Source: Parvibaculaceae bacterium (GTDB taxonomy: Bacteria; Pseudomonadota; Alphaproteobacteria; Parvibaculales; Parvibaculaceae). Taken from it: DNA of 64,000 nt. The DNA lies in NCBI GenBank assembly GCA_028283765.1, contig JAPWJY010000008.1, positions 1,369,001 through 1,433,000 of the forward strand. Direction: 5' to 3'. The translations under genes and the position numbers were made by a program. Below, piece after piece: positions 39,677 through 43,946 of the stretch. A model generated the notes under the pieces. It was given only the letters and a program-made list of their open reading frames with translations, made no database searches and was not told the origin of the DNA. Each line of letters begins with the position of its first letter. Position 1 is the first letter of the stretch.

Positions 39677-40852
39677 ATGCGTGCCACCAACCCTGTCTTC
39701 AGCGGCTTGCCGACCACCATTTTCACCACCATGTCGGCGCTCGCGACGGAGCATCAGGCGATCAATCTGGGGCAGGGCTTTCCCGACGACGAAGGGCCGG
39801 ACGATCTGCGCGCCATGGCTGCCAGAGGATTGATCGAGGGACCGAACCAGTACCCTCCCATGATGGGATTGCCCACCCTGCGCGAGGCGGTGGCGACGGC
39901 AAACCGCCGCTTCCATGGTCTTGATGTGGACTGGCGCAGCGAGGTGCTGGTCACCTCCGGCGCGACCGAGGCTCTGGCGGATTGCCTGCTGGCGCTGCTC
40001 GCGCCCGGCGACGAAGCCATCATGATTGAGCCCGCCTATGACAGCTACCGGCCGATCATCGAGGCGGCGGGGGCGACGCCGGTCTCCGTGGCGCTGGAAG
40101 CGCCCCACTGGTCGCTGCCGGTGGACAAGCTCAAGGCCGCTTTCACCAGCAGAACCAAGCTGATCATTCTCAATAATCCGATGAATCCGACCGGCAAGGT
40201 TTTCAGCCGCGACGAATTGCAGCTGATCGCCGATCTGGTGATCGAGCATGACTGCTACGCAGTTTGCGATGAGGTTTACGAGCATCTGGTCTTTTCCGGC
40301 GCGCGGCATATTCCGCTCATGGCTTTCCCCGGCATGTATGAGCGCTGCGCGCGCATCGGTTCGGCGGGCAAGACTTTCTCGCTGACCGGCTGGAAGGTCG
40401 GCTATATCACGGCGGGCGCGGCCCTGATGGACGCCATCGGCAAAACCCATCAGTTCGTCACCTTCACCACGGTGCCCGCATTGCAGAATGCGATTGCCAT
40501 GGGGCTCGGCAAGGAAGACGCCTATTTTGAAAAGCTGGCGTCGAGCCTTGAGGCCAAGCGCGATCTGCTCGCGGCCGGTCTGCGGCGTGCCGGTTTCGAC
40601 GTCATGACGGCGGACGGTACCTATTTCCTCAACGTCGATTTCACGGCGCTGGGCTACAACGAGCCCGACACCGAATTCTGCCGCCGCATCACGAAGGAGG
40701 CCGGTGTCGCCGCCATTCCGCTGAGCGCCTTTTACGCCGACGGCGAAAACGCCCCGCGCAACCTCATCCGTTTCTGCTTTTGCAAGAAGGACGAGATTCT
40801 GGAGGAGGCCATCGCCCGGCTGGAACGCTTCGCCCGGGGGAAGGCGGCATGA
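39677..40852 (+). CDS. Class I/II pyridoxal-phosphate aminotransferase
   Basis: Fold-type I aminotransferase of 391 residues. The PLP lysine is in SAGKTFSLTGWKVG; other landmarks are NLGQGFPDDEGPDDLR, VLVTSGATEALADC, LNNPMNPTGKVFSRDEL and the C-terminal arginine in NLIRFCFCKKDE. The pattern is closest to methionine/kynurenine aminotransferases (YbdL/KAT type), but the amino acid cannot be fixed by eye. I use ATG 39677; the frame opens at 39620 but the added part is not conserved. The stop overlaps the next gene as ATGA. Confidence 0.92.
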   Translation: MRATNPVFSGLPTTIFTTMSALATEHQAINLGQGFPDDEGPDDLRAMAARGLIEGPNQYPPMMGLPTLREAVATANRRFHGLDVDWRSEVLVTSGATEALADCLLALLAPGDEAIMIEPAYDSYRPIIEAAGATPVSVALEAPHWSLPVDKLKAAFTSRTKLIILNNPMNPTGKVFSRDELQLIADLVIEHDCYAVCDEVYEHLVFSGARHIPLMAFPGMYERCARIGSAGKTFSLTGWKVGYITAGAALMDAIGKTHQFVTFTTVPALQNAIAMGLGKEDAYFEKLASSLEAKRDLLAAGLRRAGFDVMTADGTYFLNVDFTALGYNEPDTEFCRRITKEAGVAAIPLSAFYADGENAPRNLIRFCFCKKDEILEEAIARLERFARGKAA

Positions 40853-41514
40853 ACCCGGAAATCGGCACCTTGCGCCGCGCGCCCGAGGGCGAAGCGAGAT
40901 GGCTGGTTCTGTTCGCCCATGGTTATGGCTCTAACGGGCGCGATCTGATGAGTTTCGCCGATCTGTGGGCCGGGGCCATGCCGGGGGTCGCCTTTTCCGC
41001 GCCCTCCGCGCCAACGCCGTCCCCTGATGGTGGCTTTCAATGGGTGCCGAAACGGCCTCCCGCCGATCCCCGTTTCGCCATGGAGATTGCCGAAGCAGCC
41101 GCCGGATTCAATGATATCTGCGACCGGGAACTGGCACATGCAGGGCTTGACGCCTCGCGGCTGGCGCTGGTCGGCTTCAGCCAGGGCACCGTGCTGGCGT
41201 TGGAGGCGGGTCTGCGCCGCGCGGTCGCGCCGGCCGCCATTCTGGGCTATGCGGGCGGCCTTGCCGGGCGCGACCGGCTGAAGGACGAGATACTCTGCAA
41301 GCCGCCGGTCATGCTGGTCAATGGCGAGCAGGATGCGATAGCCCCGGTCTACGGCATGCAGATTGCGGTCAAGGCGCTGAGCGAAACAGGCCTTGCCGCC
41401 CAGGGCTTTGCCATTCCGGGCCTCGGCCATGAAGTCAACGCCGACGCGCTGATCATGGGCGGCCGCTTCCTGCTGTCGGCCTTTGCCTATCGCGAGAAGC
41501 ATGGCCTTGCCTGA
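40849..41514 (+). CDS. Alpha/beta-hydrolase, carboxylesterase/phospholipase type (YpfH-like)
   Basis: A 221-residue serine hydrolase. The oxyanion segment is LFAHGYGSNGRDL, the nucleophile elbow GFSQGTVLAL, the acid in NGEQDAIAPV and the histidine in GLGHEVN. This matches the small cytosolic carboxylesterase (Estase II / YpfH) family. The ATG overlaps the aminotransferase stop, so translation is coupled. Substrate unknown. Its end is followed by the promoter and leader of asd. Confidence 0.9.
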   Translation: MNPEIGTLRRAPEGEARWLVLFAHGYGSNGRDLMSFADLWAGAMPGVAFSAPSAPTPSPDGGFQWVPKRPPADPRFAMEIAEAAAGFNDICDRELAHAGLDASRLALVGFSQGTVLALEAGLRRAVAPAAILGYAGGLAGRDRLKDEILCKPPVMLVNGEQDAIAPVYGMQIAVKALSETGLAAQGFAIPGLGHEVNADALIMGGRFLLSAFAYREKHGLA

Positions 41515-41596
41515 AACGGCGGTCCCGAAACCCTTCACGAAACGGCCATAAAACCCCTCTTTACCTCCGCAGGGAGCCGGTATAGGTTCCCGCCCC

Positions 41597-41674
41597 ATGA
41601 AGACGATGCTCAAAAAAACCACCACCATCACCACGACCGCCATGGGCGGGTCGTCGAGGGTGGCTGCGCGCTGA
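41597..41674 (+). CDS. Threonine-rich leader peptide of asd
   Basis: A 25-codon open frame, MKTMLKKTTTITTTAMGGSS followed by RVAAR and a stop. Seven codons are for threonine, six of them in the window 41618-41638, interrupted by one isoleucine codon. This strongly resembles the E. coli thr leader peptide. It ends 27 bases before the 5' arm of an intrinsic terminator, and asd, a gene of the threonine/isoleucine/methionine/lysine branch, follows. A strong Shine-Dalgarno is not visible; AGG lies about 12 bases upstream. Inferred role: ribosome stalling at threonine codons when charged tRNA-Thr is scarce. Confidence 0.8.
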   Translation: MKTMLKKTTTITTTAMGGSSRVAAR

Positions 41675-41735
41675 GCAACGCCGGATGAGTTCCTCGAACG
41701 AGCCCCGCCAGACCTGGACGGGGCTTTTGGTTTTT
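41645..41735 (+). promoter_or_regulatory. Transcription attenuator of asd (antiterminator and terminator)
   Basis: Terminator: arms AGCCCCG (41701-41707) and CGGGGCT (41719-41725), then TTTTGGTTTTT. Competing antiterminator: GGCGGG (41645-41650) pairs with CCCGCC (41704-41709), and TCGAGG (41654-41659) pairs with CCTCGA (41692-41697), which removes the 5' arm of the terminator. A ribosome stalled at the threonine codons leaves 41645 onward free, favouring the antiterminator. A ribosome at the stop codon (41672) covers it, favouring termination. The geometry fits classical amino-acid attenuation. Confidence 0.78.
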
Positions 41736-41793: not shown

Positions 41794-42846
41794 ATGGGTT
41801 CCAGTTTGTCGTCGCCGTCCGTCGCCATCGTCGGCGCCACGGGCGCCGTGGGCGTTGAAATCCTGAAATGTCTCGATGAGCGCGATTTTCCGCTCTCGAA
41901 GCTGAAGCTGCTGGCCTCGCCCCGTTCCGTGGGCAAGACCCTGAGCTTTCGCGAACGGGCGCTGCCCGTCGAGGCGCTGGACGAGAAGAGCTTCGAGGGC
42001 ATCGACATTGCGCTCTTTTCGGCAGGCGGATCGACCTCGCGCAAATTCGCCCCGATCGCGGTCGATCACGGCGCCATCGTCGTCGATAATTCCTCGGCCT
42101 TCCGCATGGATACGTCCGTGCCGCTGGTCGTGCCGGAAATCAACGAGGGCGAGATCAGCGCTCACAAAGGCATCATCGCCAATCCCAATTGCGCCGCGAT
42201 CATTTCGCTGGTGCCGCTCTGGCCGGTCCACAAGCAGAACCGGGTGACGAGACTCATTCTCTCCACCTATCAGGCGGCCTCGGGTGCCGGGGCGGCGGCC
42301 ATGGACGAACTGGTCCAGTCCACCCGCGCCTATCTCGATGGCAGGCCCTATGAAAACACGGTCCTGCCGCATCCCTATGCCTTCAACCTGTTCAGCCACA
42401 ATACGCAGATCGATCCCGCGACCGGCTACAATGACGAGGAAACGAAGGTCATCAAGGAATCCCGCAAGATTCTGGGTGACACGGACATTCGCATCAACAT
42501 CACCTGCATCCGGGTGCCGGTGCTGCGCGCCCACGCCATTTCCATGACGTTTGAATGCGAGAACCCGATCGCCCCCGACGAGGTGCGCGCGCTGCTCGCC
42601 GGTGCGCCGGGCGTGAAGATCGTCGACGATGTCGAGCGCAACTATTTCCCGATGCCCATGGATGCGCAGGGGCAGGGCGACGTTCTGGTCGGCCGTATCC
42701 GGCAGGACGTATCCGATCCCTCCGGCCGCTCGATCTCGATGTTCGTCGCGGGCGACCAGCTTCTCAAGGGCGCAGCGCTCAACGCCGTCCAGATCGCCGA
42801 ACGTCTGGTCGAGCGCCATGTGGCGGAGAATCTGGTCGAGGCCTGA
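41794..42846 (+). CDS. asd: Aspartate-semialdehyde dehydrogenase
   Basis: Reduces aspartyl phosphate to aspartate semialdehyde with NADPH, the branch point to lysine, threonine, methionine and isoleucine. 350 residues. The cofactor motif is VAIVGATGAVG, the active-site cysteine is C133 in IIANPNCAAI, and a conserved histidine is in RVPVLRAHAISM. AAGGAG lies 9 bases before the ATG. It is preceded by a threonine-codon attenuator and followed by a strong terminator, so it is a single regulated gene. Confidence 0.97.
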   Translation: MGSSLSSPSVAIVGATGAVGVEILKCLDERDFPLSKLKLLASPRSVGKTLSFRERALPVEALDEKSFEGIDIALFSAGGSTSRKFAPIAVDHGAIVVDNSSAFRMDTSVPLVVPEINEGEISAHKGIIANPNCAAIISLVPLWPVHKQNRVTRLILSTYQAASGAGAAAMDELVQSTRAYLDGRPYENTVLPHPYAFNLFSHNTQIDPATGYNDEETKVIKESRKILGDTDIRINITCIRVPVLRAHAISMTFECENPIAPDEVRALLAGAPGVKIVDDVERNYFPMPMDAQGQGDVLVGRIRQDVSDPSGRSISMFVAGDQLLKGAALNAVQIAERLVERHVAENLVEA

Positions 42847-42959: not shown

Positions 42960-43592
42960 CTACCCTCGCAAAATCTCTGCAACGATACTCTTGTGTTTGG
43001 GGCTTGCATTATGCGGATTGCCGGTCCCGAAAGGAGGTTTCGGGTCATACTCCATTGCAAGCTCGATCGAAGCCGCTATTTCATCGCCCGCAATGTGGCG
43101 GCAGATTGCAAGCCCAAGGTCGATACCCGCAGTGACGTCTGCTGACGTCCAATATTTCTCGTCTCGTGTTATCCTATCTCCCGTATATTCGGCACCGAAA
43201 TGCGCCATGTAATCACGCGCGCGCCAGTGCGTCGCCGCTTTTCGACCCCGAAGCAGATCGGCCGCGCCCAGAATGAGTGATCCCGAGCAGACCGACCCGG
43301 TGATCGCCGTGGTTCGATCCAGTCGCTTAATATTCGACCGAAGCGCTTCGCTGTTTATGCACTGCTGAATGCCTTCTGGCCTTCCACCGGGGATAAGAAG
43401 GACATCGGCTTCACTGACATTGGCTATGGCTGCAGATGGAGCGAGGGAAAGGAAACCATCACCTGTTCGGCATGGTACTCCTGTTTCACTAACGAAGACG
43501 ATTTCAGTGTTGGGCAATCGGGCAAGTGGATCACACACGCCGATGGGATCAAGCGCGGTTACACCATCAAATAACAATATTACGATTCTCAT
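42960..43592 (-). CDS. DJ-1/PfpI family protein (isonitrile hydratase-like)
   Basis: A 210-residue member of the DJ-1/PfpI glutamine amidotransferase-like fold. The opening MRIVILLFDGVTALDPIGVCDPLARLP, the LLIPGGRPEGI loop and the nucleophile elbow GSVCSGSLILGAA are typical of the InhA (isonitrile hydratase)/ThiJ branch. The cysteine in VCSGS is the likely catalytic residue. The start could be ATG 43592 or 43607. Composition is less GC-rich than in asd. It is convergent with asd and not linked to other genes. Confidence 0.88.
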   Translation of the reverse strand: MRIVILLFDGVTALDPIGVCDPLARLPNTEIVFVSETGVPCRTGDGFLSLAPSAAIANVSEADVLLIPGGRPEGIQQCINSEALRSNIKRLDRTTAITGSVCSGSLILGAADLLRGRKAATHWRARDYMAHFGAEYTGDRITRDEKYWTSADVTAGIDLGLAICRHIAGDEIAASIELAMEYDPKPPFGTGNPHNASPKHKSIVAEILRG

Positions 43593-43946
43593 GCCGTTTC
43601 CTTTCATGAAACGGCCCAGGCGAGCGGCCTTTGCTAAACCGCGCTCCCCGATGGTTTAACCATCTGCGTTCGCCAGTTACGCGGTAGTCCAATCCTGACG
43701 GTCAGGCAAAAATTTGCAAGCTGAATATGGCCGGTTTTGAGGTGGCCGGAATGAGTGAACGCCGATGATGTCGCCTTAATCAACAGCGCACAGACCTGCA
43801 CCGCTAGCCAGCAAGCGAAACCACGCATTCCATGACGCAGCGTCACAAGGGTTTTTAGCCGCCGTCTGGACAGGCCTGCGCCAATCCTTATGCTCTCCCT
43901 GAATTGTAAGGGGGCCTAACAAAAGGTTCCGCGTGGGAGGATGAAG
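43593..43946. other. Intergenic region between the PfpI gene and the second thiolase-like gene
   Basis: About 350 bases between divergent genes, moderately AT-rich. A minus-strand open frame of 70 codons exists at 43634-43846 but shows no family similarity and no ribosome site. GGGAGG at 43935-43940 is the ribosome site for the thiolase-like gene. No repeat or RNA was recognised. Confidence 0.4.

Follow-up and report, generated by a model that had tools for sequence, protein, structure and literature searches.

We find that the asd gene of a Parvibaculaceae bacterium (41794-42846, + strand, in the window, as we call the whole 64,000-nt stretch of DNA analyzed) is preceded at 41597-41735 by an element that we identify, with high confidence, as an attenuator, an assignment well supported by comparison between genomes. 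We consider it likely that this is a ribosome-mediated attenuator which would sense the charging of both Thr-tRNA and Lys-tRNA, and which would control a second, amino-acid-regulated asd.

The element opens with a 25-codon ORF (41597-41674, + strand) that encodes the peptide MKTMLKKTTTITTTAMGGSSRVAAR and in which, as the initial annotation had counted, there are seven Thr codons and one Ile codon. It also contains three Lys codons (K2, K6 and K7) and two Met codons after the start codon; the Lys codons and one of the Met codons, all placed before the main Thr run, had gone unmentioned. A short ORF with clustered codons for pathway products thus stands ahead of its target gene, the arrangement expected of an attenuator. 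The leader starts 82 nt downstream of an esterase-like gene on the same strand (40780-41514) and ends 119 nt before asd. The product of the latter scores 397 bits against TIGR01296 (asd_B, cut-off 324), aligns with solved aspartate-semialdehyde dehydrogenases and retains the NPNC motif; we refer to it as leader-type Asd. Convergent to asd lies a DJ-1/PfpI-like gene (42960-43607, - strand), with a ZTP/ZMP riboswitch (RF01750, 60 bits) immediately 5′ of it at 43607-43690 on the same strand.

Upstream of the leader we predict a promoter at 41560-41588 (+ strand), with a -35 box TTTACC (41560-41565), a 17-nt spacer and a -10 box TAGGTT (41583-41588) that ends 8 nt 5′ of the leader ATG. Nearly all relatives have a -35/-10 pair before the leader ATG, in most cases TTGACG or TTTACA followed by a spacer of 17 nt, their -10 box most frequently ends 8 nt before the ATG, and their median promoter score is reached by 0.2% of shuffles. 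Given that the predicted -10 box is so near the ATG, the transcript should begin no more than a few bases from the AUG and be nearly leaderless. The initial annotation had made its reading depend on transcription not starting downstream of 41597, and the conserved predicted promoter indeed lies upstream, not downstream, of this position. A simple promoter and terminator scan of the window, whose rules are strict, called nothing at the leader; the terminator was probably missed because its stem bulges near the loop.

The leader RNA can adopt three pairings. Region 1 (41618-41641) would pair with region 2 (41645-41664, GGCGGGTCGTCGAGGGTGGC) when free of ribosomes; region 2 would alternatively pair with region 3 (41692-41709, CCTCGAACGAGCCCCGCC) as an anti-terminator; and region 3 also provides the 5′ arm of a predicted intrinsic terminator, 3:4 (41701-41734), made of a stem at 41701-41725 followed by the U-rich tail TTTGGTTTTT (all on the + strand). 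The two anti-terminator helices proposed in the initial annotation, GGCGGG (41645-41650) with CCCGCC (41704-41709) and TCGAGG (41654-41659) with CCTCGA (41692-41697), are correct to the letter, as is the terminator 3′ of the leader, and the RNA folding recommended there gave z = -2.55 for 41597-41735, matched by 2 of 200 shuffles. Together with the stall-dependent contrast described below and the recurrence of the whole element before asd in dozens of genomes, this sets it apart from chance. The pairings 1:2, 2:3 and 3:4 are mutually exclusive, as in attenuators, judging from folding and comparison. We also considered that the ORF and stems act mainly through Rho access, RNA stability or asd translation rather than by intrinsic termination, which we regard as improbable: some leader families have the stem but no U-tract, and the structure downstream of the Rhizobiaceae leader differs, yet in the window and in most relatives a strong stem is followed by U residues, and neither the asd start codon nor its AAGGAG is part of the alternative stems. 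Five Thr/Lys asd leaders display a terminator-like stem without a U-tract, so that termination may work differently there.

We then modeled the effect of ribosome position on these structures, by folding the RNA up to the terminator loop after removing the part covered by a ribosome (leading edge 10 nt past the A-site codon) and reading out the probability that region 2 holds the terminator 5′ arm, P(2:3). In this model, P(2:3) for the window leader is 0.06 without a ribosome and 0 with a ribosome at the stop codon, while it reaches 0.64-0.76 with a stall anywhere from K6 through T13 and 0.49 at T14; a stall at K2 (0.36) falls outside the effective range. The modeled control codons are K6 K7 T8 T9 T10 I11 T12 T13 T14 (41612-41638, + strand). 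A simpler definition of the arm gives 0.04 for the free RNA, 0.60 for stalls at codons 6-12 and 0.00 at the stop codon, and the resulting stall-dependent contrast of 0.56 is matched by 6 of 300 shuffles. Averaged over 49 leaders, P(2:3) is as high for stalls on Lys codons as on Thr codons (0.84 each) and drops to 0.00 close to the stop codon; in the fold model, then, 2:3 is freed by a stall but not by a ribosome that has reached the stop codon. The mean without a ribosome is 0.53, with a wide spread, and hairpin 1:2 is weak in about half of the leaders, so the state without translation is not clearly “off” in these.

Based on these predictions, we propose that RNA polymerase would initiate a few bases 5′ of the AUG and that a ribosome would translate the leader behind it. 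When Thr-tRNA or Lys-tRNA is scarce, the ribosome would stall in codons 6-13 and cover region 1, allowing 2:3 to pair, which would block the terminator and let asd be transcribed. When both tRNAs are plentiful, the ribosome would proceed to the stop codon and cover region 2, and the terminator 3:4 would form; if the leader is not translated, 1:2 and then 3:4 would form. We infer leader translation, termination in vivo and the responses to Thr and to Lys from sequence comparison and folding, the Lys response being the least certain of them.

To examine the distribution of the element, Asd homologues were gathered by protein similarity, not by motif, and their upstream DNA was then read. A leader was found at most of the 80 loci collected in this way, and leaders with this anatomy stand before asd in Alphaproteobacteria as diverse as Bradyrhizobium (MFTTTKRTTKTTTASGARGGVRA), Reyranella (MMRFATKTTTTKTTTFGGPARTCA), Asticcacaulis (MTFVTRTTTTMKTKAQGPGIIARA) and Azospirillum, and in many metagenome-assembled genomes. 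Among 27 leader-type asd genes sampled over the class, 18 have a leader, 8 do not and 1 could not be judged. The closest relative, which belongs to the same genus and has an Asd 95% identical, encodes an identical leader peptide, its ORF differing by a single synonymous substitution. Six species of the sister genus, those whose Asd is most similar, have a leader (LKKQKATTT type); in about 19 others, with a less similar Asd, the leader-type asd is kept and no leader precedes it. The expectation that the Thr run and stems persist in close relatives is therefore borne out in part, by the identical peptide of the closest relative and the Lys/Thr leader of six sister-genus species, and fails in the other 19 or so. 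In a tree of 68 Asd proteins, a quick tree with many open forks, the leader state changes 7 times, against 18 in shuffles, which is consistent with an old leader that may have been lost several times, plus leaders on Azospirillum-type and Rhizobiaceae Asd.

A covariance model was built from the relatives plus the window, and the window leader matches it with E = 5.6e-20. Elsewhere in the genome of the window the model found no second Thr/Lys leader; its weaker matches there, which we rejected, are a branched-chain leader (MIKITNIVALLLL...) and probable chance matches. A leader peptide of the branched-chain type (MIKITNIVALLLLAVLAH...) is encoded at 1722052-1722182 (- strand) of contig C3 of this genome and at six other loci, and is conserved in the bacterial family to which the genome belongs. 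In four loci, a dapA-type gene is preceded by leader-like elements with a similar 3′ part and few Lys codons.

The stems also appear to have evolved together. Eight consensus pairs of the terminator hold in 98.9% of alignment cells, and three pairs have changed on both sides. RNAalifold, applied to the leader alignment, recovered the terminator alone, because the other two stems compete with the terminator or with each other; given this competition, the switch was tested by swapping partners between lineages and by masked folding. Because near copies weakened the signal of a swap over the full 35 rows, the test was rerun on 21 thinned lineages, a thinning that controls for shared ancestry only in part. 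The leaders' own partners were stronger than swapped ones for both 2:3 (z = -4.8) and 1:2 (z = -4.2), and 0 of 20,000 permutations were as good. These data bear on the idea that we are looking at the terminator of the upstream esterase gene plus a chance Thr-rich ORF, with asd unregulated by it. The presence of the esterase-like gene upstream on the same strand would suit such an arrangement, but it is asd, and no single upstream gene, that accompanies the conserved leader, promoter-like sequence and stems, and the stems coevolve, making this explanation very improbable. A chance origin of the ORF was rejected given that the peptide is conserved, and an assembly artefact was rejected given that independent genomes carry the same element.

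We next asked which amino acids the leader would sense. Among the control-region residues of 44 distinct asd leaders, Thr makes up 41% (3.5% background) and Lys 22.6% (2.4% background). Met is also raised (3.7% versus 1.6%, p = 3e-4), partly through second start-like codons, and no Ile enrichment was found in this set. As a comparison set, we used 9 leaders that the covariance model described above picked up ahead of a short thrS (TIGR00418 above cut-off in 6 of 6 tested), whose control regions contain 49% Thr and 3.7% Lys, each with no Lys or a single one. All 44 asd leaders have at least two Lys in the control region, versus 0 of the 9 thrS leaders. Part of the leader ORFs had been chosen by Thr+Lys density, a choice that would inflate Lys; among asd leaders chosen by Thr alone, 18 of 18 still have at least two Lys versus 0 of 9 (p = 2e-7, a value that overstates the case since the leader sequences are related). 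The pure-Thr leaders themselves, which share the RNA design, stand before a short gene for threonine--tRNA ligase at nine loci in several alphaproteobacterial families, and we found no published description of them.

The alternative to dual sensing is a thr-operon-type attenuator that senses Thr only, or Thr and Ile, in which the Lys codons contribute RNA pairing or an unstructured A-rich stretch. We regard it as the most serious rival, if clearly the less probable reading. In the window, the run closest to region 1 consists of Thr plus one Ile, and in several leaders the Lys-Arg codons (AAGCGC) can pair with the surroundings of the stop codon; rather than sensing, part of the Lys conservation could reflect pairing of AAGCGC with GCGCTT or the upkeep of an unpaired A-rich stretch. 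Speaking for Lys sensing, Lys in Bradyrhizobium-type leaders is mostly encoded by AAA (116 AAA and 34 AAG), a codon that is rare in the asd coding sequences of these genomes (33 and 1069), although A-rich sequence may have been selected for other reasons. In these leaders, the two Lys are kept in 29 of 29 and 28 of 29 distinct sequences, and, in the leader comparison, third codon positions are the most variable within the control codons; this variability is an indirect sign that the leader would be translated, as is the translation of its Sinorhizobium counterpart (PMC10117765). Against sensing of Thr alone, the thrS leaders share the RNA design yet have no Lys cluster, Lys occurs at several positions that differ between lineages, modeled stalls at Lys equal those at Thr in effect, and one leader has five Lys and two Thr. 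Thus, from sequence comparison, Thr is very probably sensed by the asd leader and Lys probably so, with a chance somewhat above even that sensing extends from Thr to Lys. The initial annotation had proposed an attenuator responding to Thr alone: the attenuator itself is upheld by its anatomy, its conservation, the coevolving stems and the stall model, while sensing of Thr alone is not supported, because the Lys codons are as consistent as the Thr codons and occupy equally effective stall sites. Thr-only leaders do exist, but before thrS.

Asd is the enzyme at the branch point to Lys and diaminopimelate (DAP), Thr and Met, and it had been noted as a difficulty that a Thr-responsive asd must also feed Lys. 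The puzzle is largely answered by the Lys codons of the leader together with a second asd in the genome. Indeed, all 28 sampled genomes with a leader-type Asd, including that of the window, have two asd matches, the second encoding a canonical Asd roughly 41-48% identical to the leader-type protein. In the genome of the window, the canonical asd (contig C4, 151120-152127; 41% identity) is located downstream of the end of a leuB-like gene and has no leader of the asd-attenuator type upstream. With this second gene present, the need for Asd in Lys and cell-wall DAP synthesis carries less weight as an objection. More tentatively, with slightly less than even confidence, we suggest that dual-input attenuators of this kind extend over the class, the leader acting as an OR gate, with shortage of Thr and of Lys as its inputs, that would drive a dedicated second asd, with the canonical asd covering constant need, and that they have apparently arisen on three Asd clades (leader-type, Azospirillum-type and Rhizobiaceae).

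As a rule, an attenuator responds to a single amino acid or to those of a single branch, whereas the asd leader appears to read codons for two separate branches at once, which would place the shared step under direct control. For a large class to which nitrogen-fixing symbionts belong, it offers a likely regulator of asd, and it suggests why many of these genomes retain two asd genes.

The closest classical counterpart is thrL of Escherichia coli and other Gammaproteobacteria (RF00506), which likewise combines a Thr-rich leader peptide, alternative stems 1:2, 2:3 and 3:4, a U-tailed terminator and a target in the aspartate pathway. The asd leader differs in preceding asd and not thrA or thrABC, in having Thr and Lys where thrL has Thr and Ile, in its predicted promoter 8 nt before the AUG and in the absence of an Rfam match. 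The window leader matched no Rfam family at gathering or relaxed thresholds, nor did 20 related leader loci at the gathering score; for RF00506 (Thr_leader) in particular, relaxing the threshold to E = 10 brought up nothing in the window, and the 20 related loci gave nothing at the gathering score. A second counterpart is trpL/rnTrpL of Sinorhizobium meliloti, whose RNA and peptide also act in trans; by analogy, one may speculate that the near-leaderless short RNA of the asd leader does so as well. Both are alphaproteobacterial attenuators with the ORF at or near the transcript 5′ end, as predicted for the asd leader and as described for the leaderless trpL (PMC10117765), the latter differing in that it senses Trp. 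The Caulobacter crescentus ilvIH operon also has a leader ORF with transcription attenuation (PMC4117421), for other amino acids and another operon.

The nearest published relative by codon content is the S. meliloti sORF SEP5, with six Thr and three Lys codons before a gene given as “aspartate dehydrogenase”; it is translated, was suggested to be a leader peptide and was described as conserved only in Sinorhizobium (PMC10117765). We located the ORF matching SEP5 in an S. meliloti record, directly 5′ of a gene annotated as aspartate-semialdehyde dehydrogenase. The ORF that stands before asd in Rhizobiaceae is longer, has KTTTKTV at its end and is followed by another RNA structure (two loci, at 1669-1839 in one of them); in S. 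meliloti this ORF appears to be SEP5. Like the asd leader, SEP5 has Thr and Lys codons in an ORF upstream of asd, here within the 5′-UTR; unlike it, SEP5 is longer, bears these codons at its very end, is followed by a different RNA and belongs with the canonical Asd clade, and the window leader does not share its combination of terminal Thr/Lys codons and downstream RNA. Apart from the SEP5 remark (PMC10117765), our searches of the open literature yielded no account of an alphaproteobacterial asd attenuator, although subscription-only papers, e.g., Vitreschak et al. 2004, may hold one. Taken together, the proposed mechanism is classical and the widespread family of asd leaders appears almost undescribed, such that the isolated remark on Sinorhizobium SEP5 gains a wide setting.
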